Of a DNA stretch of 64,000 nucleotides, positions 5,479 to 57,425 are shown piece after piece. Each line of letters starts with the position of its first letter. Within the stretch, counting starts at the first letter, position 1. This DNA comes from Chamaelirium japonicum (taxonomy: Eukaryota; Streptophyta; Magnoliopsida; Liliales; Melanthiaceae): contig OX393553.1 in the NCBI GenBank assembly GCA_947650365.1, positions 70,479,463 through 70,543,462 on the forward strand, given 5' to 3'. A program made the position numbers and the translations under genes. The notes under the pieces are model-generated. The model saw nothing but the letters and a program-made list of their open reading frames with translations, was not told the DNA's origin and did no database searches.

Positions 5479-7465
5479 GGATGCGTTTGGCATTGGTTTT
5501 AAAATTTTAGGTTTTGATTTTGGAATACCAAGAACTAGTTTTGTGCAAAACCAGTTTTAGCTTATCGAAAATCAGTTCTAGAATTATCAATATTTAAGCA
5601 TTTGACAATAAAACCATTTTTGAGCCTAAAACTAGTTTTGCAGTTATTTCCTCTATTTTTAAATATTCTATTTGTAAAATATTTTCTAAAATACTATTCT
5701 TCTACAATATTTTATCTCTCTACAATATTTTCTCTCTAAAATATACTCATTCTATAATATTTTCTCTCTCAAAAATATTCCCTTGCTACAAGATTTTCTC
5801 TCTCTAAAAATATGCTCTCTATAACACTTTCTCTAATATTTTCTCTCTACCCCATTTTTTCTCTCTATGATATTTTCTCTCTATAATATTTTCTCATTCA
5901 GTTTCTCTTTTAAATATTTGTTCTTTAAAATATTTTATCTTTACAATATTTTCTCTCTCTAAATTATTTTTTTTGTAAAATAATTTTTCTCTCTCTATAA
6001 TATTCTCTTTCTACAACATTTTTTCTTTACAATATTTTTTCTTTATAAAATATTATCTTTCTATAATATTTTTTTTATCTGTAATATCTTCGACCTCTTT
6101 CAACAATATTTTTTTTCTATACCATTTTTTCTCTATGATATTTTCTCTGTATAATATTTTTTCCTTTATGTCATTTTCTCTCACTATAATATTTTCTCTT
6201 TCTAAAATATTCTTTCTATAATATTTTCTCTCTCTAAAATATTCTCTTTCTATAAAATTTTCTCTCTAAAATATCATATTCTATAATATTTTCTCTCTAC
6301 AACATTTCTCTCTCTAAAATATTCTCTTTGTATATTATTTTCTCTCTCTAAAATATTCTTTCTATAATATTTTCTCTCTTGAACATTTTCTCTCTCTATG
6401 ATATCTTCTCTCTCTATAATTAATATTTTTCTCCCCTCTACGTTATTTTCTCTCTCTATAATATTTCTTTTCTAAATTTTACTCTCTATAATATATTCTC
6501 TCTCTAAAATATTCTCTTTCTATAATGTTTTGTCTCTATAAAATATTCTCTTTCTATAATATTTTCTCTCTCTATAATATTTTTCTTTTTAAAATATTCT
6601 CTCTCTATAATATTTTCTCTCTCTAAAATATTCTCTTTCTATAATATTTTATCTCTCTAAAATATCCTATTTCTATAAAGTTTCCGCTCTATAACATTTC
6701 TCTCTCTAAAATATTTTCTTTTTATAATATTTTTTTTCTCTAAAATATTTTGTTTCTATTATATTTTCTCTCTCTATGATATCTTCTCTCTTTATTATTA
6801 ATATTTTATCATCTCTATGTTTTTTTCTCTCTCTATAATATTTTCTATCTAAACTACTCTCTATAACATATTCTTTCTCTAAAATATTATCTTTCTATAA
6901 TATTTTTCTCTCTAAAATATTCTCTTTCTATAATATTTTCTCTTTCTACAATATTTTTTCAACAATATTTTCTCTCTACAATATTTTCTCTCTTTATAAT
7001 ATTTCCTCTCTATAATATTTTTTATCTTCAATATTTTCTCTTACTATATATTTATTTATTTAATACTCTCTATCTATATACTTCTCTTTAGAATTTTCTC
7101 TCTATAATATTTTTATATCTATCATATATTTTCTCTAAAGTATTCTCTATAATTATTTTCTCTCTCTTCAATATGATATGTATATATTCTTCCGGTTTTA
7201 ATTTTTTCTCTTTACAATAGTTTCTCTCCACAACATATATGTTATTCACAATAATTTTTTTTAATTATTGTTTTGTCTTGCCTCAAGAACCCAAAAGTAG
7301 AAAATTTCTGCTTTTGTGTTTTGATGCTTTTCTGGTTTTGGTTTTGGAAAACCAATTTTCTAATCGAATCCCAAACGCACTAAAATCTTATACCAAAACC
7401 AATTTGGCAAGCGGAACTAGTTTTGACGCAAAACTAGACCTCCAAAACCAATGCCAAACACACCC
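5479..7465. mobile_element. Non-autonomous PIF/Harbinger element with a minisatellite core
   Basis: The ends are GGATGCGTTTGGCATTGG and the inverted CCAATGCCAAACACACCC, flanked by a perfect TAA target duplication (5476-5478 and 7466-7468). The outer ~150 bp on each side are homologous to the ends of the autonomous element at 31193-37966: both have repeated AAAACCAGTTTTAGCTTATC-type blocks on the left and AACTAGTTTTGACSCAAAAC on the right. The middle ~1.5 kb is pyrimidine-rich tandem repeat with no coding sequence. Size is about 2.0 kb against 6.8 kb for the relative, so it is an internally deleted and repeat-expanded derivative that would depend on a transposase supplied in trans. Confidence 0.8.
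5650..7225 (+). repeat. Degenerate minisatellite, unit about 17/34 bp (TATAATATTTTCTCTCTCTA)
   Basis: Dozens of imperfect copies of TATAATATTTTCTCTCT and AAAATATTCTCTTTC alternate without a fixed period. The plus strand is almost free of G. The unit is A+T-rich with strict strand asymmetry (CT on plus, GA on minus). It lies wholly inside the Harbinger derivative. Confidence 0.9.
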
Positions 7466-25797: not shown

Positions 25798-26764
25798 TTT
25801 AAGGGAGCAATTTGGAACAAAATAAACTTTAGGGGGCTGAGTGTAATATAGACTATCTATATTACAATTAGGCTGTCGGGTCGGGTCGGGCCGACACCCT
25901 GGAAAAAAAAAAAGACCCAAAAGGGGTATTGTGCAAACATTTCAAACATTACGGAGCAATTTGGAACAAAATAAGCTTCAGGGGGTTGAGTGTAATATAG
26001 ACTCTATATTACACTCAGGCCTTCGCTGGGAAAAAAAAAAGCCAAAGGGGTATTCTGCAAACATTTCAAACATTAAGGAGCAATTTGGAATAAAATAAAC
26101 TTCAGGGGGCTGAGTGTAATATAGACTATCTATATTACACTCAGCCCTTAGCCTTTCGGGTCGGGTCAGGCCGACACCCTAGGAAAAAAAAAAGAGCGCC
26201 GCTGCGCCGGAGGGGGGAAGGGGGGGGCCGGGGGAGGGGGGGGAGGAGGGGGAGGTCCGAGATCTTACCTCCGAGGCGACGACGGTGGCAAGGCGACGAT
26301 GACGGCTGCGCCGGCGAGGCGACGACGGCGGCTGCACCGACGAGGCGACGACGACAGCGGCTGCCGAAGGGGGAGGAGGAAGAGGGCTTCCCGGATCCCT
26401 CTCTCTTCCCGGACCCCTCTTTATAATTTTTTTTTAAAAAAAATACGTACCACATACGTACCCGAGTGAGTACCCGATCCGTACCAGCATACAGTTTTCG
26501 TACCCGATTCAAACCGGCGTACCGGGTACGAGAATCATCGTACCTGTACCTGTACCTGGTACGTACCCGGTACTGGTACGTGTTCTGATCCACATACCCG
26601 TGCTTCATAGCTGCCAATTATGTACAAGGATCCGTATCTGCATATCCTACTTTACCAACATGCCTTGCATATATCATTATATATTGTTTAATGTACGACT
26701 TGATAAACACATAAAGGGTGATACCATCTGGACCATCACCTCTACCCTTTAGATGACTTACTAG

Positions 26765-26854
26765 CTATGAAGCACGAGTACTGGTGCGGGTACAGGTACG
26801 ATACGGGTACGCTGATACGGTAAAACCTTAAAAAACTAGGATACGGGTACTGCG

Positions 26855-26926
<72 letters not shown>

Positions 26927-27784
26927 TCTGTATGTACTTTAAGGGAGCAATTTGGAACAAAATAAACTTTAGGGGGCTGAGTGTAATATAGACTATCTAT
27001 ATTACACTCAGGCCGTCGGGTCGGGTCGGGTCGGGCCGACACCCTGGTGAAAAAAAGACCCAAAAGGGGTATTGTGCAAACATTTCAAACATTAGGGAGC
27101 AATTTGGAACAAAATAAGCTTCAGTGGGCTGAGTGTAATATAGACTCTATATTACACTCAGGCCTTCGCTGGGAAAAAAAAAAGCCAAAGGGGTATTGTG
27201 CAAACATTTCAAACATTAGGGAGCAATTTGGAATAAAATAAACTTCAGGGGGCTGAGTGTAATATAGATATAGTCTATATTACACTCAGCCCTCAGCCTT
27301 TCGGGTCGGGTTGGGCCGACACCCTAGGAAAAAAAAAGAGAGCGACGAGCGAGGCGGGTTAGGATTTGAGCGCCGCTGCGCTGAAGGGGGGGGGGGACGG
27401 GGGAGGGGGGGGAGGAGGGGGAGGTCCGAGATCTTACCTCCGAGGCGACGACGGGGGCGAGGCGAGGCGACGACGACGGCTGCACCGGAGAGGCGACGAC
27501 AGCGGCTGCACCGGCGAGGCGACGACAACAACAGCTGTCGGAGGGGGAGGAGGAAGAGGAGGGCTTCCCGGATCCCTCTCTTCCCGGACCCCTCTTTATA
27601 AATTTTTTTAAAAAAAATACGTACCACATACGTACCCAGGTGAGTACCCGATCAGTACCAGTGTATAGTTTTCGTACCCGATTCAAACCAGCATACCGGG
27701 TACGGGAATCGCCGTACCCGTACCCGTACCTGGTACGTACCCAGTACTGGTACGTGTTCTGATCCACGTACCCGTGCTTCATAG
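26765..27784 (+). mobile_element. CTATGAAGC-ended composite element, copy 2
   Basis: Ends CTATGAAGCACGAGTACTGG and the inverted ACCCGTGCTTCATAG, followed by GTGTACAA (27785-27792). It has the same internal order as copy 1 but a single (TA)n (about 26859-26924) and no foldback. The GC-rich block 27340-27590 is purine/GACGACGG-rich; its Arg/Gly- or Pro-rich open frames have no domain and are rejected as genes. Confidence 0.7.
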
Positions 27785-30811: not shown

Positions 30812-31020
30812 CTGGGCCATAGGTCGGCAGGGTCCAGTAATAGCAAATCTTGTGCAACCACAACAAAAAGTCCCAGATCAGTCGCTTGTATAACCATAAC
30901 CCTGACAATGGCATCGATGTTGGTGCGGTGGAGATACTGATACCATCAGGTTGGCATTCTTTAAATCCAACTAGACCATTGTATATTCTGCATCATGAAC
31001 GAAATTGTATGATGCATTGA
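30812..31020 (+). pseudogene. Unrecognised coding remnant
   Basis: The plus-strand frame reads GRQGPVIANLVQPQQKVPDQ then SLV. After a one-base shift it continues YNHNPDNGIDVGAVEILIPS, GWHSLNPTRPLYILHHERN and CMMH, then TGA. Both halves read like conserved protein and join at the same point, so this looks like a decayed exon of a real gene or transposon protein. I cannot name the family. Confidence 0.35.
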
Positions 31021-31539
31021 GTGATTTGATAAATCATATCTAGGTTCCAATTTGAATCGAGATGCATGATCAAGTTTACGGTGACCAAACGCCCGCAAAA
31101 ATAGGGTGACAATTATATATATAGGACCAGGATCCATAGACCCATCATGTTGAAATATAATCCAAATCGTTAAATAGAGGTTTCAGAATTTACTATGCGT
31201 TTGGCATCAGTTTTGAAATTTCTAGTTTTGGTTTTGAAGTACCAAAAACCAGTTTTCACCAAAACCAGTTTTAGCTTATCCATAACCAGTTTTGTGCTCA
31301 AAATCAGTTTTGCAATTATGTGTGTTTGGCTGATTCAATACAAAACTGATTTTGATCATAATTAGCAATCGTGACTCAAGTGTTACGAGGTTTTTCATTT
31401 ACGAGGGAACAAGCAAACATGCATGCTCTGTTACGGAAAAACTTGGGCATTGGCCCATTTCTGACGAGCATTCTATGAAGGCCAAAGTAAAGCACAGAGT
31501 TCATCTCAGTGAACCAACGACCCACTGCATCATCACAAA

Positions 31540-31720
31540 TAAGAACCCCATCATGAAGACAAGTTCAAAAAGTATTACAACAAACCAACATAAGAACCCC
31601 ATCATGAAGACAAGTTCAAAAAGTACCTCATCTGATGTATGTCTCTTACAAGCCAACACACAATATAAGAACCCCATCATGAAGACAAGTTCAAAAAGTA
31701 TTACAACAAACCAAAATGAA
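31540..31720 (+). repeat. Three direct copies of AAGAACCCCATCATGAAGAC
   Basis: A unit of about 35 bp (AAGAACCCCATCATGAAGAC followed by AAGTTCAAAAAGTA) occurs at 31542, 31593 and 31667, between the left end of the Harbinger element and the transposase stop. It makes a repetitive open frame on each strand; neither is considered a gene. Confidence 0.8.
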
Positions 31721-31748
31721 AAATACGTAATATGAGACCCTAATACAA

Positions 31749-33080
31749 TCAAATGATTCCTGCAATTCCTTTTGATGCTGCCATTGCATTGGCCAATGAC
31801 TTTCTGAATTCTGTCATTTGGTTGTCCCGACCTCTAAGCACAACGCCCTCATTCTCACCATTACCACCACCACCATCATCGTCATCCAAAACATCCTCTT
31901 CATCGGTACCATCGCTAATAATCATATCATTATCATCATATTGGGTGAATAAGAAATCCCTTGTAGCCTCCTGTTTAATAAAATTATGCAGTGCACATGC
32001 AGCAATGACAATCTTCACTTGCGTCCGAAATGGATATGAAGCCATACGTACCAAGATTGGCCACCTTTTCTTCAAAACGCCGAAGCATCGCTCGATGACA
32101 TTCCTCAGTGAGGAGTGGGCATGGTTAAATAACTCCATTGCACCTTCCGTTTTCCCACCAACACGATGAAAGTCTGGTATATGGTATCTGACTCCACGAA
32201 ATGGCGAAAAATATCCCGGCATGTTCTTATAACCCGAGTCTACGACGTAATATTTGCCTAAGAATAGAATAAGTTACATATAAAAAAAATACACAATATA
32301 AAGTATAAAGTGACAAACAAACATAAGACATTTAGATATACCTGGAGGGGGGTGAGGAAATTTTATATTCGGATTCCGTATTGCTTCACCCAAAATCCTG
32401 CCATCATGCGCTGTTCCCTCCCAACCTGCCTGTACAAATGTAAAACGCATATCGAATGAGCAAACAGCAAGTACGTTTTGTGTTACTTCATTATTCCTGC
32501 CAGATCGATATGGGATTTGTTTTTCTACTGGAATTACTGCATTTATATGGGTTCCATCAATTGCACCGATACAATCCTTAAACCATGGCATGAATCTTTT
32601 ATTGTTATAAATCTCCATTGGTGTCTCGTTGAAAGACGGTGGTACAATAAGCTCCTTGGAAAACTCAATAATAGCCTCTAACACATTATTAAAATGCCGG
32701 CTAATTGTCTCTAAAGAATGATTGAACCTATCACATGCATCAAAGTTACTCCAGTTATGAGCAATAATAATGATAAATATTGCTAATTGCTCCTCTAAGG
32801 ACACATTTTGTGTATCCTTCAACAACCCTCCCTCTTTGAGTGCTTGAACTAATTTAAGAAATACATTTCTGCTCATTCGAAGTATCCTATAAACACGTCT
32901 ATGGTGTGTTCCAGGATCTAAAAGGCCCTTAAAATACTTATGTCCCGTCTCCTCCGATGTGAACATCCGTTGTCGAGATATACGTGGTTTTTCAATATAT
33001 TCTATAAACTCCAAAACCATCCTATCGATTACGATAGATGTCAACACATCATCTTCGTCTTTACTCAACACAATGTCCAT
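31749..33080 (-). CDS. Harbinger (HARBI1-like) DDE transposase
   Basis: Two exons, 32342-33080 and 31749-32257, are separated by an 84-bp intron (donor CCAG|GTATAT, acceptor TTCTTAG|GC), giving 415 residues, a normal length. The split Gly restores the family motif PPPGKYYVVDSGY. All three catalytic acids are present: D175 in IGAIDGTHI, D253 in VVDSGY and E302 in NVIERCFGVLKKRW (DDE_Tnp_4 family). A helix-rich region around residues 94-140 (EEQLAIFIII...LETISRHF) is the usual HTH-like DNA-binding part. The tail is acidic (DEEDVLDDDDG). The protein cuts and pastes the element at TWA targets and normally works with the Myb-like partner encoded by the same element. The reading frame is intact, so the transposase could be active; it would probably also mobilise the 5479-7465 derivative. 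Confidence 0.9.
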
Positions 33081-33084
33081 TGCA

Positions 33085-33545
33085 CCTGTTCATTCAAAAT
33101 AAAGGGTGAACATTAAAACTTTCTCTTTGACATCTCGTACATACAAAAAGAATATGTAATCAAATATAAAATAGTTAAAAACTTTGAACCTAACAAATTA
33201 ATTGCTCAACCCCATAGTTGACAGTACCAAAGATGATTTCACTGAACCAAGAAGGCAAATGAAAAAACAAAATTCATGCTATCATTGTAATTTCAGATGT
33301 TAAGCATAAACAATGAATTATATGTTCAATTGATAGCTTACTAACTACTTTTCGTCGATCGATAAGGTTAGAAGACCTCCAAACTTGAAAAGTCAAGAGA
33401 TAGAAGGTAACTTGGTCTACTAACCCTAATTCCAACAAGAGAAAATGATACTCATCACACTTGCGTGCGCAATTGTACAGCTATTTTGGATTGCAAAAAA
33501 AAAAAAAAAAAATTTGTACAGCTAGGCTTTCCATGATATACAAGC
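33085..33545. other. Spacer between transposase and captured fragment; no gene
   Basis: AT-rich spacer inside the Harbinger element, with an A-run at 33497-33511. It presumably includes the transposase promoter (minus strand); no clear TATA box could be placed. Confidence 0.4.
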
Positions 33546-33546
33546 A

Positions 33547-33923
33547 TCACAATCCCATGATGAAGGAATGGTCTATGTTGGGCTCCACCACCAGAGCTAA
33601 CACATCATCACCTAGTGTCACCCCTGATTCTGTTTCCTTCCTCTTTACCTGCTCCAATGACAGCAAAACACATTGAGAACATTTGATTAAAGCAATTAGA
33701 ATGAGAACATCTGAATATAATCAATATAGAATTGAAGGCCTACCTCCGCGACTGATTTTCCAGAGATGTCGACGATCTTGTATGATGATTTGCTAGCCAA
33801 CCCATCAATCCCATAGCAAATGAGGCAGCCATTGTCACCCAACACTTCACAAGATGAGGACTGGTCACTTTTCATAATCCTGCAAGGCTTCTTGACCTTG
33901 AACCATGGCTTCAGTTCCTCTTG
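33547..33923 (-). pseudogene. Captured LURP-one-related (LOR, DUF567) gene fragment, two exons
   Basis: Exon 33744-33923 reads ELKPWFKVKKPCRIMKSDQS, CEVLGDNGCLICYGIDGL and KSSYKIVDISGKSVAE. After a 95-bp intron (GAG|GTAGGC ... GCAG|GTA) exon 33547-33648 reads VKRKETESGVTLGDDVLALV then VEPNIDHSFIMGL and stop. This is the C-terminal half of the tubby-like beta-barrel of LURP-one-related proteins, a plant family some of whose members affect pathogen defence. Splice sites and frames across the two exons are intact, but the N-terminal exon is absent and the end is about ten residues short, with later frameshifted matches to the usual tail. It lies between the two transposition genes in the same orientation, so it is a captured, intron-containing genomic fragment. 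Promoter read-through transcription is possible but not shown. Confidence 0.8.
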
Positions 33924-33929
33924 CTGTGA

Positions 33930-35132
33930 TCCATCTTAATTTTAGCAATTGGTGTAGAACCAAATTCATTCAGAATAAAGGGTTTGATTTCAGAACCCTT
34001 GATCCAAGAGAGAGAATTCCAAATCACAGAGGTGAGGAAGAGGAAAAAAAAAAAACAAAAACAAAAAATAAGGGACCAAATTTGTTCCCAATAAAAAAAA
34101 ATTTATCCATCCACAGGCAAACACTACAGTGAGCTACACTTTTAGCTTTGAAAGTAAGGGAGAAGATAGTTCTCCAGGCTATAGCTAACACTGAACAGCA
34201 AGAAGTAAAAGATGAAATGCTTGAACAAGCTCACAAATTATAAAACGCAAAGTAGCTTACAACTGCAAAACTATTAAGATTCCAACATTCGAACCCAACC
34301 CAGATTCGACTAAGAGCCAATGGATCAAAACAACACCTCGGATCGAGAAAAAGGAAACAGTCGAACATGACATCTGCATCCATCACTGCCTGGCTTGTGC
34401 ACCACCATACCCACCACCATAATTCAATTCAGTGGTACAAATTAAGTTGGAAATAGATCAAAAATACCCAAATGCAGTCCAAAATGAGAACAAATTAATA
34501 GGGCCAGAATAATAGTAGGAAGTGCTTGAAGGGCTTTGGCTCTACATAAACCCAAAGGACGAACTAGGTCTGCGCTTCAGTGCTGGGTCTCCAACTATTG
34601 ATCAATTCCTCAATTCCTCTAGGGGGGGCTCTATTATTTGTTTCCATCCACACAGAAAAAATAGCAGAGCATGCAAGAGGATCATATCCACATTCTTTTT
34701 GAACCCATGAAGAAAAAGGATAGATCTGCAAATGCTTTTGATAGAGTATCTTGTAGAGCTTGGAGTCCACTTCACTCTAGCACAGCAGGACTCCCATATG
34801 GCCTAGGAGAATTGGCACTGAAAGAAAAGATGCTTAGCTTGAGAGGACTTAGCCCTGAAATTAAAGCAACTAAACTACTGTAGCATGAGCCTTAGCCTCC
34901 TCATTAGAAAAACAATAAAAAAAGGAACCCTAATACTCTTTTGCATCACCTTTCATCAATGTGGAGGAGCCCTTTTTTGAGAAATGAACAAGACCCAAAA
35001 AATTAGAAATAAGGAAAGACCTAGGGGAGGGAAAAAACTGAACCATGAATCAGATAGAAAAAAGGACAGAAATTAAATAATTCATGAGCTTTGAAAGCCC
35101 TATATTTCGTAAATTACATTATTCCCATGAGT

Positions 35133-35182
<50 letters not shown>

Positions 35183-35595
35183 ATCAAAATGTATATGATT
35201 GGACCAATCAAACACATTGCATCCCTTGAGACCAAATCAACCCAATCAATCAGCAGGGGAAAACATAGGATTAAAACTAGATAGAATCACACCCTCTTGA
35301 AGAAAAACTGAATCCCAAAGTTACCAACTAATCATAAAGCACAGTACTATCAAGTTCTCTTAAAGAACAGAAAGTTCTCTTGCAAACTACAAGCAATAGC
35401 TTTCAAAAGTTCAAGAACCACAAAGTTACCAACTAATCATAATAGCATCCAGAATTCCAACATAATCACAAAGTTACCAACTAATCATAAAAGTATCCAG
35501 AATTCCAACATAAATAAAGGGTGAACAATTCCAACAAGAACTACATATCATCCCAAACCAAGTCCCAGAAACACAAATCATAACCACATAATATG
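33930..35595. other. Middle of the Harbinger element; no gene recognised
   Basis: Low-complexity A-rich text, (GA)n at 35142-35180, and short direct repeats ACAAAGTTACCAACTAATCAT (three copies, 35318-35490). The missing first LOR exon was looked for here on the minus strand and not found. Open frames have no motif. Confidence 0.5.
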
Positions 35596-35598
35596 AAA

Positions 35599-36662
35599 CT
35601 AACGGTCGTAACCGGTAATTGCTTTCAGCCAACCCAAATGAAATTCTGGTTCAAGCAACATAAACATCTCCCGCTTCTGTGGTTCCATGAATGCTTGAAG
35701 AATAACATAGTAAAATGGACTTCCTTTTTCCACGTACGCCATTTTGTTTAGGATTGGCATGACAACTTGCAAAGCGTATGCCTCCTCTCTTTGTTGAGCT
35801 GATGTAGGTTGGGCAATTCTGGACTGTAGGAATTGAGCCATCAAGTCCGCATTTGCGTTAAACTTATCCAACAACTTTGTTTTTGTACGAGATTGCTTTG
35901 AAGCGGATGCTAATGAACCAGATGCTCGCTTCTTGTACCCGCTAGTACGTTCTTCTCCAACCTCCTCATCGACCCCCCACGGAAGATGAAGTATGCATCT
36001 CTTCAAATCCTTGTGGGGGAGCCGCATCATGTGGTGCTGATTCTGAATTAGTAGGTTCATTATTCATGCTCATGGTTAATGCTTCTTCGCCTGTGGCTGT
36101 TGTTTCTTGAAACACTGCATAATATAATTCTTTATACTGCAATGTTTGAGTTCTAAATTTCTTTGACATTGGATGTGCCTGTGTCGATTTCATACTTATA
36201 TCAATGGAATGTTCGTATAACAACTATATATAAGAACCAACTTTAAAGTTTTCTAATTACCTCTATGTATGCATCCCATACTACATCATCGGCCACAAAG
36301 ACATGCTTCACTTCATCCCAGCCAAATCCAAATGAGTTTCGTTCAAGGTAATCCCATTCATTCCAATCAGCACGCATATTTTTATATAAATTCTTAAGCT
36401 GGTCCATTTGGTAGACCCCATTTGTTTGCTTGGTATACTCCTCAAATAATAATTTCCAACCTACTTTGGTGAAACTACTTGTAGGCCTATGACCCTGTTG
36501 AACTAGCTCCTGACAGCATTCTAGAAAAATTCTTTTTAAGTCCGATGTCCATTCTGCTTTGACAATATTTGAATCTTTCTCCTTCCCCTTCCCCTTTCTC
36601 TTTCCCTTTCCTTTTTCATTTCCTGTTCCAAGTTGGTTTGCAGCAGGAATCAGACGATCCAT
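35599..36662 (-). pseudogene. Harbinger Myb/SANT-like DNA-binding partner gene, one frameshift
   Basis: Exon 1 (36261-36662) begins MDRLIPAANQ, then a Lys/Gly-rich stretch, then the Myb/SANT-like trihelix domain: KAEWTSDLKRIFLECCQELV, SSFTKVGWKLLFEEYTKQT, MDQLKNLYKNMRADWNEWDY and VWDAYIE. The best intron is 36179-36260 (82 bp, GAG|GTAATT ... ACACAG|GCA), which joins to AHPMSKKFRTQTLQYKELYY and TTATGEEA, the usual continuation. In exon 2 the frame is lost at a C6 run (35973-35978; G6 on the coding strand). One base fewer would continue into VDEEVGEERTSGYKKRASGS and on to the LGWLKAITGYDR end. Partner proteins of this type bring the transposase to the element ends in the nucleus. The frameshift may be a real lesion or a homopolymer error. 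Confidence 0.8.
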
Positions 36663-36699
36663 TTGTAACTATGTTACGATAATTGCCTGAAAAGAAATA

Positions 36700-36705
36700 A
36701 TATAT

Positions 36706-36743
<38 letters not shown>
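36700..36743. repeat. (TA)n microsatellite
   Basis: Perfect (TA)n just upstream of the Myb-like gene start (minus strand). Confidence 0.9.
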
Positions 36744-36745
<2 letters not shown>

Positions 36746-37339
36746 TGTACACTCTAGCTAATACATCTAAAACGTATGTTAGAAGCAAATCCCTTGTTGT
36801 AATCCATTGATTACAATATAGCAGTTAAAATGTGAAAAGTATAGAAAATTAGGAATTAAATCAAGGAATTACAGGTTTTTAAGACATAAAATAAAGAATT
36901 CATACCAATGCTTAAGGACCATTCTTTTATGTCTATTTTTTACATCTTTAGTAATCAATGTTATTTTTCCCACTTATCCTTTGATAACGAAAAAAAAAAT
37001 CATTTAGGGCCAGGTTTGGGCTTAGGCTTCATGGCCACGCACAAACGACCGGGATCATGCCAAAACCTCCGACCGATCGCAGAATTCATAACCTAGATAG
37101 AAATTTAGGTGGATTAATGATACCCCAGTTGATTTAAACGATGCCTTTCTTAAAAATAAAAATAAAAAAGACCCATAATTCCACAATCTAAAAGAGCCCT
37201 CAACATGAGACATTTCATCCATCCAAAACAAAAGACAATTCAAAAACAGAAAAAAAACAAAGCAGAAACCCATCTTTGTATCAAGGTAAATCATATATGA
37301 GGCATCCAACAAATTCGGCTAAAAAAACCATAGATGGGG

Positions 37340-37725
37340 GCTCACCGAGATTTCTGATGGATGATCGGAGATCGAAGAAGTGACCAGCAATCGGAGGAGG
37401 AGCGGCCGGGCTGCTCGACGATCGGTTGAGGGATGATCGGAGATCGGAGGAGAAGTGACCGGCAATCGGAGGAGGAGCGGCCGGGCTGCTCGATGATCGG
37501 CTGAGGGATGATCAGAGGAGGCGAAGTGAACGACGATCAGAGGAGGAGCAACCGGGGGAGGAGCGACCGGGCTGCTATCACCAACGACCGGGCTGCTCTC
37601 ACCGACGACCGGGCTGCTCTCACCAACGACCGGGCTGCTCTCACCGAGCGACCGGGGCTGCTCTCACCGGCAATCGGAGGAGGAGCGGCCGGGTTGCTCT
37701 CTGATCGATGAGGAGAGGAAGAAGA
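37340..37725 (+). repeat. GC-rich minisatellites (GATCGGAGGAGGAGCGGCCGG; CGACCGGGCTGCTCTCACC)
   Basis: Two overlapping repeat types occur. The first is a ~90-bp duplicated block with GATCGGAGATCGAAG...GGAGGAGCGGCCGGGCTGCT. The second is a ~24-bp unit CGACCGGGCTGCTCTCACC in four to five copies (37566-37665). It is the GC-rich subterminal part of the Harbinger element. Open frames on both strands are repeat artefacts. Confidence 0.8.
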
Positions 37726-37984
37726 GGCCACACCCCTCTTCAAACCCTAACCCGATGGTTAGGCGTCGCTCGAGAAACAGAAACACAAGCCGAAAAGCAA
37801 AAATTTTTTGCTTTTCGGTTTTAACCCTTTTTCCGGTTTTGGTTTTACAGAACTGGTTTTGTAACCGGATGCCAAACAGACTTTTGGTTGGGGTTTAAAA
37901 CTAGTTTGGACACGAAACTAGTTTTGACCCAAAACCGGGTGTTCAAAACGGATGCCAAACGCACCCTAATTTTTAGTAAGAATG

Positions 37985-38440
37985 ATCATATTGACTTAAA
38001 TTTCACACCAACAAAAAATCAGTAAATTCTAAAAACTCCAAGTTCATCAAATCCAAAGGAATTATCGACCGTCCATTTTAAGCGCTAACTTGAGGGGAGG
38101 GATGCATCAACTTATGCTATGCTTCCTCATATATTTACTAATGGACTTTCACCTACATGCTAATTTTGGTCGATATGCTACGATCAAGTGATAATCCTCA
38201 CCAAAAATCAACAAATTCGGAAATCCCAAGGCATAAAAAGTATATCGTTCAAATTAATGGGTAAAATGTACAGACGATAAAGCTTCTAAAATTTATGGCC
38301 CATGAAGTTTTAAGATGTGTCGTTTTAGTTGGATATGCTATCTATGGTTAGGTGATTATCGAACCAAAATTCAGCAAATTCCGAAACTTTTATGCATGTG
38401 AAAGTCCATAAGTAATTACATAAGTAAGCGTAACATAAGT
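37985..38440. repeat. Core-family sequence, two diverged copies, left of (TA)n
   Basis: CACCAACAAAAAATCAGTAAATTC and CACCAAAAATCAACAAATTC each lie in the context (T)GATAATCCTCACC...CTTCTAAAA...GATAAAGCTTCTA. The vocabulary is that of the elements at 57540-57830 and 63850-64000. Part of the (TA)n-associated family. Confidence 0.55.
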
Positions 38441-40438: not shown

Positions 40439-41021
40439 ATGGAAAGCCCTAAGAAGAGAGGCCGCCCGAAGAAACCCGTGGCCGGGACAATGGACTTCCA
40501 GAAGACGGGCTCCGGTGCCCCCTCGCCTTCTCCCTTCGACGAGACCGAGATCCCGGAGTCGGCCCCTTCGACCTCCCAAAAGCGGCGTGGCCGGCCTCTG
40601 AAGGTACAGAGGCAGAGCCTCCCCAAAGAGGTCGTCGCCGACAAGGGCCCTGCCACCTCGAGGCGGGCCCTGCAGGTGGTCGCGAACAACGGGGAATTGG
40701 TGGGGGACCTCCAGCGGCACGGGTCCGGGGTGGTCGCCGCTGGGGAGCCGCCTCCTAGGTGGGAGCAGGTGGCCAAGGTCGTGCCGTCGATGGATGCGGT
40801 GATCAAGGTGTTCTGCGTTCACACGGAGCCCAACTTCTCGCTCCCGTGGCAGCGGAAGCGGCAGTACAGCTCTAGCAGCAGCGGGTTCATCATCGGGGGA
40901 CGGAGGGTGCTGACCAACGCCCACTCGGTGGAGCACCACACACAGGTCAAGCTGAAGAAGCGCGGGTCGGACACCAAATACCTGGCGACGGTGCTGGCCA
41001 TCGGGACCGAATGCGACATTG
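40439..41021 (+). CDS. DEG9: DEG9 exon 1
   Basis: ATG at 40439 to donor ATTG|GTATCT, 194 codons plus one base. It is markedly GC-rich at third positions compared with exons 2 and 3. It carries the AT-hook-like region and catalytic H162 and D193. Without splicing, the frame would run on to a stop at 41075. Confidence 0.9.
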
Positions 41022-44000
41022 GTATCTCCTCTTCTTATAACATGTATGTTGAATCATATGGGTTACTTGGGCTCTAAAATTTAAACCACCACCTCATTGT
41101 ACTAGAATTTTGCCTTCATCTTTTAAGAAATTAGAAACTAAAATCAGATCCCTATTGTCTATAGGATTGGACGTAATATCTTGCACCAGGTAGACAACTG
41201 TTTGGAAAGTTCTTGTCAATCTTCCTAACAGTCGACTCCATCTGATGGGATGACATTTGGGTGATAATCATAGGGTGTGTTTGGCATCATTTTGGAACCG
41301 TCAGTTTCTATTCCTAGTTCCATATTTTAAAAGTGACAGGATAGTATTTGTTCCGGTGGAATGAAGGACTTGGGAACGATTATATATCACTCCGTGCGTT
41401 TCTATGCTAACGGGAATGCTAAACCATCGAATTACATTAGAAATAGTAATTGACGGGAATACCCTCTTTTGGATGAGATTAAGCGGAACAACTGTTCCTC
41501 ATGCCAAATACCCCCATAATGATATGCGTCTTGAACATTGTCTATTATCCGTCCCATTTTCCATCTAGCACAGAGTCAAACTTATGGGTAATCTTAGAGA
41601 GCTTGGAATAGTATTTGAATATGAACATGATCCAGTAAAATAATAATTTGAATAATTTGGCTTCATGCCAAGGTGTCAACCATTGAGTCAATTTTGACGT
41701 AGACAATTGACGTAGTAATTTATTGTTCATGTACGGTTAAACTTGAATTTATTGATTTATACCAAAATTGGGATGCGATGAGGAAGGACATATTGAACGT
41801 GTATAGCACGCATGAATTGCAGCATTTATGATGGTGTATGCATTGAGTCAGTACTCCAAATAGAATAGTTGGACGAGACTCTATCAAATCATTCTTCCAC
41901 ATTTCCACCTCATCTAGCTCTGCAAAAAATGGCATGTTGATGCCTCAAATGGTATTCGAGCATGATGGATCAAATATAAGTGTTTCTTGGAATGTTATGC
42001 ATTTACGAAATTTTATGAAGAGACAAGGAGATTCACAAGAGTCCAAGATAGATATAAAGCTTTGTTGTATAGATCTATATTTTAGGTAATTATAAGGGTC
42101 CATTAGCAAGTAACGAAGATAAGGAGGTTGATATATGATGTAGTTTGTTGGATTGCTTGTCTAGTTGGATTTTAGTGCTTAGATCGAGGCATATGAAATA
42201 TGAATTCAAAATTTTTTTTGTCTTGATTTTTCCTAATTGTCTTAGCAATATTAAGTATTATAAGTCTGCTACCTTTTTGAAGGCATAATCTTTTGAATAT
42301 ATACCAGTTTTTGGTTCAGGACCACTCATGGGAAAGCTAACTTCAGGCCACACATTTCAGTTTCAAGAAATGGGATTTGGTTATATATTTGAGTCATTTA
42401 TGAAATTCTATGTTTCTTTTGTAAATCTCAGGATTGGTTTGATTTACTGTTTACTGTCAAATTAGGTTAAGTTGAGTTAATGCTATTAATTTTCATTGTG
42501 ATTCCTAGTTTTTCATGATTAATGAGATTGCAGTTTATTTATCTTTCATCTCTGTTTGTGGACTCTTAAGGCCTCCTCTCTTTGTTTCTCTTCTTTGCTC
42601 TTGGATTTTGAGCCAAGTCAAGCGGATTCGTCTGCCAACACTTTTCTTCTCTTTCTTTTCTTGTTCCAATATTTTCCAACATTAAATTGGTATGAGAGCA
42701 GGTTTATGTGGTGTCCTATCATCTCTGTTAGGGCATACTATGATCATTATATTTCCAGATAGTAATGACAAAATTCAAGATTTACGTCCATAGGTTGTGA
42801 AATAAGCCCATATCAAAGCTTCGTGAGATGAATGCCACAATCAATTTTTCATTTTCTTTCGACATGTGATTTTGGGTCTAGATCAAGGTTTCAAAACTAG
42901 GTATCGGCCCGGACCTGACTCAGTATCAGTCGGTTCAAGCTGATACCATTTTTTGTCATTTTCAAAGATAAATTAATTTTTTTTTTGCAGGTATCGGCCG
43001 ATACGACCGATACGGGATGGCTCGGCCTATACAGATCGATATGTACGAGTATTGATTGATACGTACTGATTGGGACTCCGTACCGGCCAGTAGTAAACCG
43101 AGTCGTATCGGTCAATATGACTTAGTATCGACCGAGTTTTGAAACCATTGTCTAGATATTGGGACTACATATGTGTGGTTCTAAAACAACATGAAGAAAG
43201 TGATTTTTCTCTTTAAAAAAATAATCTACATCAATCTTCAGCGTGTATCTTGAAGACAACCCATCATGAAAGATGCTGATGAGAAGAACCTTTAGGTGTT
43301 CCATTCATTATTAAGCGGATATACAAGCATGATCTAATCCAAAGGAGGAAGAGTGTGTTTGTTCTTTTTCACTTTACATTGATTCACTCCTTCCAGTATC
43401 AAAATAATGCTTGGTTTGGTGATCGACATCGATGCGGAGAACAACCAAATCAAGAGCCTTTATTGTAAATTGTAATGAAAGCACATTGGGTTTGTTCTTT
43501 GTTAGGACTTAGGAGTGCATAGAGAGAAAGACCTGCACCATCAGTTGATCATAGACATTCATGGCTGTAGTCGGAACTTGAGGTGGGATGTTCAGGCTTC
43601 TTTATGTAGAATTGCTCCTTTTAAATTTTCTAGACGAGATTGGGCTTGGGAGAGAAAGGTGTGCATGTGTTTTTTTTTTGTTGTTGGGGGGGGGGGGGAG
43701 GATGGGGGTGTTGTGTTGGGATGTAGAGAACTGACAACATTTGGATCTCATTGGTGAGATCATCACAATGGAAGCCATTTATAGTCTATTTGGTAGTGGT
43801 ACTAGATTAGGTCGAGTTTAGTGTATGGCGACTCTTAATTTTTAGGGCAAATTACAAAAACCTTTTTGAACTATACACCTCATTTCATATTGGTCCCCCG
43901 TCCCTCAACTTTTTTTTTGAACAATTTGATCCTCCGCCAACTTTTTATCCTAAAAATACCCTTATCAATTTTAAATAACACACAAAATTGTTTTAAAATA

Positions 44001-53441: not shown

Positions 53442-56400
53442 TTTTTTTTTTTTTTGAGAAATTCCTCTCCGAGAAGGAGAGGATGGGGTTAAGCCGTACC
53501 CCAAGCTATATTATTAAAATAGGAAATAGCAAGTTACAGATTACATAGAAAAGGGATCATATCTCCTGACTGCTTAGGAGAGAGGGCTGTGGACCAGGAT
53601 AGAATCATCCTCTTAAATTTCTCCCAGACCTCCGCTATAGTAAGCTCAACTCTGGAGAAGACTCGAGCATTCCTTTCTCTCCAAATGCACCAACATAGGC
53701 CAATAACTAGAAGATCCCAAGTCGATCTGAGCTTGCTGTTGATCCTCTTAGCCCGCCAAACAGTCCAAAAAGAGCGCATAGAACCCGGATGGCCCTTAAT
53801 TTGAAATCTGTGCTTAAGCATCCTCCACAGCTTACGGGAGTAGGCGCAACGGAGAAACAGATGGCCAACATCCTCCCTAAGAGCTAGGCAGAGCGGGCAG
53901 GAAGAGTCTGGGACGTTTGGGTTATTCCGAAGGCCGAGATTAACTCTGGTGAGAATCCTCTCCTTAATAGCCAGCCACATAAAGATCCGTGTCTTGAGAG
54001 GAGCTGGAGATTTCCAAAGGTGCGAGGCAATATGACATATTAGCCCTCCTGCATTGAAGAATCGGTAGAAAGATCTGACCGAGAAGGCTCCTGAAGCTTC
54101 CCACTTCCATATAGAGGAATCTCTCTCTGGGGTCAGAGCGAAGGAGGAAAGGATGCGGTAGAGCTCTGCTAGTTGCTCCTGCTGCGCGGGGTCAAGGTTT
54201 CTTCTAAATTTCACCGACCAAGAGACTTCTCTTTGCGAACTGGAAACCTGCGAACGGACTGAAGCATTCTGGTCCCATGCTAGTTCAAAAAGATCCCCAA
54301 AGAGAGAAGCGAGCGAGATATCCCCGACCCATTGATCTAGCCAGAATTTGATGTTCCTCCCGTCCCCTAGAACCAGCTTAGTGCCGCAACGGAAGGCCGT
54401 TCCAACTCGGCAGATACCCTTCCAGAACGAAGAAATCTTTCCCGATCGACGACTTCTCGCTTGGAGAGGGAAAAACCGCCTAAAATAGCGATCTCTGATG
54501 ATGTTGGACCAGTGATCGTCATGATCGTTCTGCAAACGCCACCACCATTTGCCCAACAGTGCTCGGTTGAAGTCTCTCAAATTAAGAACCCCCAAACCTC
54601 CTTGAGATTTGGATTTACAGGCGACACCCCACTTGACAAGGTGATAGGACCCCGAGGTACCATCAGCTCCTCTCCAAAGAAAATGGCTTCTGATACTGTC
54701 GATCTTCCTAATCACCCAAGAAGGAACAAAATAGAACGCCAAGAAATAGGAAGGAATGGAGGAGAGAACAGCGTTAACCAGACAAAGACGTCCTCCAAGA
54801 GACAGATGCCTGCTCTTCCAGTTCGAGAGGCGCAAGTCCACTTTCTCGACCACTTTAGACCATTGAGCTCTAGAAATGGGTTTGTTGCTGATCGGAAGTC
54901 CTAAGTACTTCATTGGAAGAACGTCCAACCGACAGTTCAGAAGCGAGGAGGCTTTCACTTCGAGTTCTTCAGAGGCCCCCACAACGAAAAGAGAACTCTT
55001 GTTGAAATTAATTCTCATGCCCGAGCAATACTCCAGCCCATAGAGAATGATCTTCAGCACTGCAATCTGTTCAATCTTCGCTTCACAGAAGAGGATAGTA
55101 TCATCAGCGAAATGAAGATTCGAGATATGCCAGGAGTTACCTCGGACACCTCGGATGAGGTTATTAGCATTAGCCCGCAATAAGATAGCGTCGAAAGCAT
55201 CCACCGCGAGGATAAAGAGAAATGGGGAGATGGGACAGCCCTGTTTCAGCCCTTTCTTAACCAGGAATTGGCTTCCCAGCTCCCCATTCACTGAACAGGA
55301 GAGCTTGGAAGAAGAAAGACAATCAGAGATCCAACGCAACCAAATCTCTGGGAACCCTTTAGCTCTAAGAGTAGAGAGAATGAAGTCCCAGTGCAATCTA
55401 TCGAACGCCTTCTCGAAATCCAGCTTCAAAATAAGGCCCTCCTCTTTCTTCTCCTTCAGATGATAAATAACCTCCTGAACTGAAGCCACGCTGTCTAAGA
55501 TAAGGCGGCCTCTAATGAAAGCGGACTGGGATATACTGATGATCGAGTCCATAAAAGGGGCCATCCTATTGGCTAGAATCTTCGTGACTATCTTGTACAT
55601 GCAGTTGGACAGGCTGATCGGTCGGAAATCTGAGATTGATTCCGCCCCCGGACGCTTCGGGATGAGAACGAGGATAGAATAGTTGAGGCTATGCAGAGGA
55701 GCCGCTCCTGAGAAAAAATCGTGAACGAAGCGTATAACATCCGGGGAGATGCAGTCTCAGAACGACTGGAAGAAGAACATTGGAAAACCATCCGGACCAG
55801 GAGCCCCATCTCCTTTCATCTCCATCACAGCGCTCCGGATTTCCTCGACCGAAAAATCTCTCCCGATGTCAGATCCTTCTGGAAGACGACCCATAGGAAG
55901 ATTATTCCAGTCTAGCGAGGCAGAGGAGGAAGGTAGCGACCTGAAGTAATTCTTAAAGTGTTCCCCAACCCCTTGCAGAATAGACTCTGTTCCGGTGAGT
56001 ATCTGACTCCCCACTGCAAGACTCCCTATGAAGTTCTGCTTCCTTCTGTGATTCGCCACCTTGTGGAAATAAGAGGTGTTACGGTCTCCTAGCAGTACCC
56101 ATTTGTCTCTCGATCTCTGTTTCCACAAAATCTCCTCTCTTTTCAACATCTCCAGGAGATCTTTGCGAGATCTAAGCAGGTCGTTCAATTCCTCCTCGGT
56201 AAGTTGAGTCTGCTCCTCTTTGGCTTCCAGGACTCCGATACGCTGGAGAATAATCTGCTTATTGGTCAGGACATTGCCAAATTCCGATCGTTCCCAGCCG
56301 CGAATCTTATGCCTAAGAACTCGAAACTTACGAACTAAGTTCCTAGCGGAGTTGAAGTCCACCGGGGTCTGAGACCACCACTTACAGACAAGGTCATCGA

Positions 56401-56534
56401 ACCCTGGGCTCTCTCGCCAAACTTTCTCAAAACGGAATCTCCTCTGCGGCCTACCAAGGCTAGGACAGGTATCCAAAAGAAGAGGAACATGATCTGAGAC
56501 CACTGATTGGAGAGAGGACTGAATAGCGTTGGGA
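53441..56534 (-). mobile_element. 5'-truncated L1-type LINE, 3.1 kb
   Basis: Poly(A) tail (plus-strand T-run, 53441-53455), 3' end GAGAGGAATTTCTC-like on the minus strand, ORF2 with RT and zf-RVT, and an abrupt 5' end inside the end of the endonuclease domain. A 15-16-bp perfect target duplication brackets it. Truncation during target-primed reverse transcription is usual for LINEs. It lies antisense in DEG9 intron 3. Confidence 0.9.
53534..56534 (-). pseudogene. LINE ORF2: end of endonuclease, reverse transcriptase, zf-RVT; one nonsense codon
   Basis: One minus-strand frame runs from the 5' truncation (FPNAIQSSLQSVVSDHVPLL, the SDHxPLL end of the APE-type endonuclease) to the stop at 53534, about 1000 codons. 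It is broken by a single TGA at 55757-55759, where QSFW is expected (TGG to TGA). RT motifs follow: KRPGAESISDFRPISL, LILKLDFEKAFDRLHW, LKQGCPISPFLFILAVDAFD, FADDTILF and MKYLGLPI. Near the C-terminus the zf-RVT domain has CPLCLALREDVGHLFLRCAY. There is no RNase H domain. The enzyme copies LINE RNA into nicked target DNA. The very low number of lesions points to a young insertion. Confidence 0.9.
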
Positions 56535-56550
56535 AATAACAGCCTAATAT
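56535..56550. repeat. LINE target-site duplication, right copy
   Basis: AATAACAGCCTAATAT, identical to 53426-53441. Confidence 0.9.
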
Positions 56551-57425
56551 AGATAACTAGGCACGTTCTGACTTGGGTCATGAAGTCCATGATAGGCCTC
56601 CAGGCCAAATTGAGAGTCGGACGAATCACTTAGTCCTCCGTCACTAGGAAACCTGTAGATCCAGTGCTGTAAGTGTTCTAATGTCCTTTTCAGATATTCT
56701 CCTAGTGAGACATTATGCTTAGTGGTCGTGCTATGACTGAGTTGCTGTTCCTCGCATTGTTTGCTATGCAGTTCTCTTGCACACACTCAATTAGCTTAGA
56801 GCATCTCCAGTTGATGACTCATCCGATGGGCCCCACCCGAATATGGATAATATCGCCCCAATTCAAGGCTCCAGCGGATTACCCATGTTTTGTTCCCACA
56901 GTTTTTATGCAAACCCATCTGCATCTTTGCATATTGTTTCCCACGACCCAAACGAGACACGTGGCGATGTGAGAAAGTGTGCTGGCGATCGGAAGGAATT
57001 GGCCTACGTACACATCACTTTCGGCCGAATATTTAATCAAGAGGCATTAATCTTAGCCCTTGGAATCAATGGTCGGTGATCAAAGACCACAAAGAATCCC
57101 AACAGGTAGTCCAATGGCTACTTTTTTTGAAATAAAGCAATGCCAACCTCCTCTTTTGGGGCCAAAAAAATCCCAAAAAATCCCACAATTTTTTATATAA
57201 ATAGGGGGTAGTGACCTACTCATTTTACACCTCCCCCTTGCTGTACCCCCTTGCTAACAATGAATCCTCGCTACTTGCACTCGTAGTCGAGCTTTGTCGC
57301 GTTCACCGGTGCGGGATCAAGAGACCTTGTCGTCAGGCTTCACCAATATTGAAAAACCCGGAACTCGGACTCGACTCGAAAGTCCACTGAGTCGAGTAAC
57401 TCGAAGACACGATTTGGGTGGCTCG
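56551..57425. other. No gene; possible Harbinger/Tourist-like MITE with TATA box
   Basis: AGAGCATCTCCAGTTGATGA at 56797 is a typical start of a widespread class of plant MITEs. TTTTTTATATAAATAGGGGG at 57189-57208 is a strong TATA-like box. A matching right end was not found and no ORF of substance follows. Confidence 0.35.

Follow-up and report, generated by a model that had tools for sequence, protein, structure and literature searches.

The region at positions 31193-37966 of the window (the whole 64-kb stretch of Chamaelirium japonicum DNA that was analysed) has inverted ends, which enclose a gene for a DDE transposase, a gene for a Myb/SANT-like protein (ORF1) and, between both genes, a piece of a LURP-one-related (LOR) gene. 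The region is most likely a single PIF/Harbinger-type element. All splicing in the element is predicted from the sequence, and the features are as follows.

31193..31230, + strand: left terminal inverted repeat, with the flank TTA at 31190-31192.
31749..33080, - strand: DDE transposase of 415 aa, with exons 33080-32342 and 32257-31749.
33089..33112, no strand assigned: motif copy A, 8 bp ahead of the ATG of the transposase.
33113..33964, - strand: putative captured segment of 852 bp, which includes the LOR fragment and is flanked by motif copies A and B.
33473..33524, + strand: short poly-A-tailed insertion (33484-33513) and its flanking repeats, 3' of the LOR stop codon, read directly from the sequence.
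33547..33648, - strand: last LOR exon, coding at 33648-33550, with the stop codon at 33549-33547.
33649..33743, - strand: predicted LOR intron, 95 bp, GT-AG, phase 0.
33744..33923, - strand: upstream LOR exon, its 5' edge predicted.
33965..33983, no strand assigned: motif copy B, upstream of the LOR exon, identical to copy A at 18 of 19 positions.
33984..35511, no strand assigned: 1.53-kb stretch without a recognised domain among the open pieces scanned (27 of 35 in 33984-35598), either a second insert or a native spacer before the transposase.
35512..35527, no strand assigned: motif copy C, downstream of the Myb gene, identical to copy A at 16 of 16 positions.
35599..36662, - strand: ORF1, Myb/SANT-like, with an exon at 36662-36261, an intron at 36260-36179 and a second exon from 36178.
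37780..37966, - strand: right terminal and subterminal repeats, with the flank TAA at 37967-37969.

The transposase gene has one predicted intron of 84 bp (32341-32258), and its product contains no internal stop. The protein matches the Pfam family DDE_Tnp_4 across the complete profile (1-158 of 158; 1.3e-21), and its motifs include the acidic residues D175, D253 and E302, which we take to be the catalytic residues. The Myb-like partner proposed in the initial annotation is recognizable from a match to Myb_DNA-bind_3 (5.1e-18), but its frame breaks at a run of G residues near 35,970. The remainder is open in another frame, and for this part of ORF1 a Pfam search gave nothing up to E 10. Because of the break, ORF1 is not intact as it stands; the break may be a true mutation or an assembly error. 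Short inverted ends, a DDE_Tnp_4-type transposase that has the three acidic residues, and a second protein with a Myb/SANT-like domain are traits of the PIF/Harbinger superfamily, and each of them is present here. An Rfam scan of 31000-38200 at the gathering threshold gave no matches.

The LOR piece is on the same strand as the two genes that surround it. As had been annotated, it consists of two exons and their intron, although the splicing is predicted. The joined exons match the Pfam LOR family (1.6e-18) at profile positions 84-184 of 187; the query comprised 97 residues of the joined product, of which 93 are from base 33923 onward. This base was chosen as the start of the upstream exon based on a CAG acceptor-like site, and the resulting piece has 93 codons without a stop. 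The piece is the C-terminal half of the LOR domain and so falls short of the full domain by which the LOR gene family is defined. No N-terminal half was seen among the 31 of 79 open pieces of at least 30 aa that were scanned for domains (27 of 35 in 33984-35598, 2 of 10 in 33081-33560, 1 of 26 in 36663-37966 and 1 of 8 in 31193-31748), a coverage at which a remnant might be missed. In the same 31 pieces, two domain matches were obtained in all, each under its family cut-off. A search of solved structures with the LOR piece returned four matches up to E 10, the best of which, to At5g01750 (0.011), is too weak to add anything.

Of 56 rapeseed LOR genes, 27 have two introns, 26 have one and 3 have none (PMC10264818). 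In view of these counts, a broken-off gene would fit a 3' piece that retains one intron and might include some of another intron upstream. On the 3' side of the LOR stop codon, the poly-A tract lies between 11-bp direct repeats of TTGTACAGCTA (33473-33483 and 33514-33524), and it apparently is a small scrap that was retroposed into the putatively captured segment.

The LOR piece, which is located before the transposase start in sense orientation, is in all likelihood a functionless passenger. A selected role, for example as the source of a sense transcript or of small RNAs that act on host LOR genes, would agree with the 93 stop-free codons, with the strong domain score and with the sense orientation relative to the transposase. 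However, half a domain is all that is present, and captured pieces are usually pseudogenes (PMC13317346); we consider selection of this cargo extremely improbable.

The terminal arms of the element (31187-31217 and 37942-37972) are 84% complementary, and a 13-base perfect core, TGCGTTTGGCATC, is present at both element ends. When the end regions 31000-31748 and 37001-38200 were compared, the best 31-base inverted match had 26 of 31 positions in agreement, which was reached by none of 300 shuffled pairs. Because the best shuffle reached 25, this inverted match by itself is only modest evidence that the ends are paired. The outermost three bases are unlike (CTA on the left versus GGG on the right, read inwards). 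The TWA flanks reported in the initial annotation are present on both sides, but the left one reads TTA and the right one TAA, and thus they are not identical as a direct repeat, a mismatch that had been left unsaid. Both sides of a target duplication are expected to agree, which leaves two explanations: a base change, or separate histories of the two ends.

A second element, located at 5479-7465 in the same window and flanked by a TAA/TAA duplication, has a start and an end similar to those of the larger element. The left ends are identical at 119 of 161 aligned bases (74%) and the right ends at 126 of 186 (68%), and subterminal sequence also is common to the two elements. These matching ends are stronger support for the pairing than is the inverted match. 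Because both ends recur together on the second element, the two ends of the larger element appear to belong to one family and to form a natural pair in the normal arrangement. The earlier statement that the ends match is upheld, apart from the outermost three bases.

The element at 5479-7465 is a relative without transposase-sized frames, and TCTATAATATTTTCTC-like units repeated in tandem take up much of its interior. Two more sequences that resemble ends, GATGCCAAACACCCCC and GGGTGTGTTTGGCATC, occur at 2596-2611 and 41273-41288, and these may mark the termini of further elements from a related group.

Three copies of one motif lie between the transposase and Myb genes, and ACCCTTTATT is their common core. 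Copy C matches copy A in the left part plus the core, whereas copy B matches it in the core plus the right part. For the 15-mer AATAAAGGGTGAACA, the 64-kb window offers no third match with up to 2 mismatches, and the 19-mer of copies A and B has two more matches in the window, only at 4 mismatches (38244 and 51790). In a test with 3464 shuffles, for which poly-A, GA and 48-mer tracts were cut out and low-complexity words were ignored, an exact 16-mer pair arose in 7 shuffles and an 18-of-19 pair in 4, and in none did the two kinds of pair fall on a common locus. A smaller test retained part of the 48-mer array, and in it each kind of pair occurred twice in the real sequence; among its 200 shuffles, one had a 16-mer pair, one had an 18-of-19 pair and none had both on one locus.

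These repeats suggest that motif copies A and B are the borders of an insert of roughly 850 bp that contains the LOR piece, and the layout of the motif favours insertion into a single element. The overall pattern would be expected if two insertions had occurred one after the other at a single site and had duplicated it; the LOR segment (33113-33964) would then have entered first and the 1.53-kb stretch (33984-35511) later. After removal of both stretches, the gap between the Myb and transposase genes is only about 100 bp. Such a gap would hardly accommodate a promoter, so the 1.53-kb stretch could be native, with copy C as an older repeat. Whether that stretch is an insert or native, the LOR segment has the same border. 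Alternatively, the motif may be no scar at all, but a repeat native to the element.

Copy C keeps the left side of the motif, copy B the right side and copy A both, as two successive insertions would leave them. For this reason, it is possible, albeit doubtful, that the motif with the ACCCTTTATT core is a site at which the element family repeatedly breaks and takes in foreign DNA. If so, the passenger at this position would differ from one family member to another.

The direct repeats A and B can also be read as a long target duplication, in which case the LOR piece might have arrived as cargo of another transposon, such as a MULE or Helitron, or by retroposition, and would be nested in the Harbinger element. 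The short poly-A-tailed insertion within the LOR segment is in line with such an origin. In contrast, the LOR intron is retained, and the borders of the segment have no poly-A tract. A search for a nested transposon at the inner borders revealed no inverted pair of at least 14 bases at 33113/33964 or 33984/35511, shorter pairs being below the reach of the search. Taken with these observations, nested cargo seems very unlikely.

The unequal flanks and outermost bases of the 31193-37966 region keep alive a reading in which two adjacent Harbinger elements, whose inner ends have been deleted, flank native host DNA with a decayed LOR gene. Such a composite may never have moved, and it would represent the initial step of tandem insertion as modelled for Pack-TYPE elements; capture via neighbouring insertions has been proposed for several superfamilies by Gisby and Catoni 2022 (PMC8903248). 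However, the halves would need to complement each other to within 16 bp, given that copies A and C agree at 16 of 16 positions, and a search of 33081-35598 with up to 2 mismatches found no inner end of this family. Moreover, both genes are in tandem as in one element. We therefore regard two separate elements as unlikely, and a single element with an insert as the better reading.

Thus, one two-gene PIF/Harbinger DNA transposon has probably captured about 850 bp of genomic DNA beside the start of its transposase gene. The captured DNA would comprise the final two exons of a LOR gene and the intron that separates them. The initial annotation had proposed a PIF/Harbinger element that carries a LOR fragment, and the ends and the DDE_Tnp_4, Myb_DNA-bind_3 and LOR matches confirm this. 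Its interpretation is supported in part. Capture of the fragment by one element is the best reading, in light of the ends shared with the 5479-7465 element, the lack of an inner end of this family within 33081-35598 at up to 2 mismatches, the motif-bounded insert and the lack of an N-terminal LOR half in the 31 of 79 open pieces scanned. Its conclusion that capture occurred at the DNA level is drawn here also, because the LOR intron was kept, which argues against an origin from spliced mRNA.

The mechanism of capture is most likely repair of a break inside the element, through which the foreign DNA would have entered. Repair might have proceeded by fill-in of a staggered cut, or by copying of a distant locus followed by return to the element, and would have left a duplication of some 19-24 bp of the element on either side of the insert. 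The third motif copy, beside the Myb gene, might be an older repeat, or the motif might have been the site of another such event. In PIF/Harbinger elements, the transposase cuts at TWA sites with the Myb protein as its partner, and the present element would move like the others. With its broken ORF1 and altered left end, this copy may depend on other copies.

Several other features of the window were observed. Long open frames at 53534-55600 and 55757-56629 resemble LINE reverse transcriptases by eye. A frame at 40439-41077 has a match to the Pfam family Trypsin (1.6e-4), and by eye it is probably the start of a host gene for a Deg-type protease. Positions 25899-27782 are a duplicated block, in which a 124-bp repeat forms two arrays (25899-26149 and 27050-27293), and the GC-rich open frames that come after one array resemble those after the other.

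The host gene fragment at 33923-33547 lies inside the transposon ends, as is characteristic of captured genes (transduplication). Gene fragments captured between transposon ends are familiar from Pack-MULE and Pack-CACTA elements, which differ from the present element in transposase superfamily and end sequences. For CACTA elements, a capture model is given in a review (PMC13317346). The initial annotation had considered capture to be little known for PIF/Harbinger elements, a view that the published Pifvine-3 (PMC2528002) and Pack-PIF (PMC8903248) elements do not support. Pifvine-3 (Harbinger-3_VV) of grapevine, as presented by Benjak et al. 2008, has ORF1 and a transposase gene and is 5.8-6.7 kb in length; its members frequently hold genomic sequence that includes exons and introns, some of it common to multiple copies, and the PIF duplications in that study are mainly TAA or TTA (PMC2528002). 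The present element is likewise of the PIF family, with ORF1, transposase and captured exon and intron DNA. In Pifvine-3, the extra DNA is in a long 5' region, whereas here it is between ORF1 and the transposase gene, and the captured gene is LOR.

The Pack-PIF elements of maize and rice, described by Gisby and Catoni 2022, similarly have PIF ends around captured coding DNA (PMC8903248). Pack-TYPE elements are defined there as non-autonomous and without transposase. In contrast, the element at 31193-37966 has an open transposase frame, and its transposase match would class it as autonomous. Turmoil-1, a Harbinger element of C. elegans, has a transposase gene together with a captured piece that resembles two exons and their intron, according to Sela et al. 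2008 (PMC2572040), but the capture there is inside long inverted repeats and the host is an animal.

Among the papers searched, none combines Harbinger and LURP, and the term Pack-PIF is used in Gisby and Catoni 2022 alone. Capture of exon and intron DNA by PIF elements is already published, so the present case is new only in gene and element, and by itself it leaves knowledge on PIF capture unchanged. It provides a clear case of PIF/Harbinger gene capture in which the transposase frame is still open and the likely borders are proposed to the base, and the motif common to these borders could reveal how PIF/Harbinger elements acquire host DNA.
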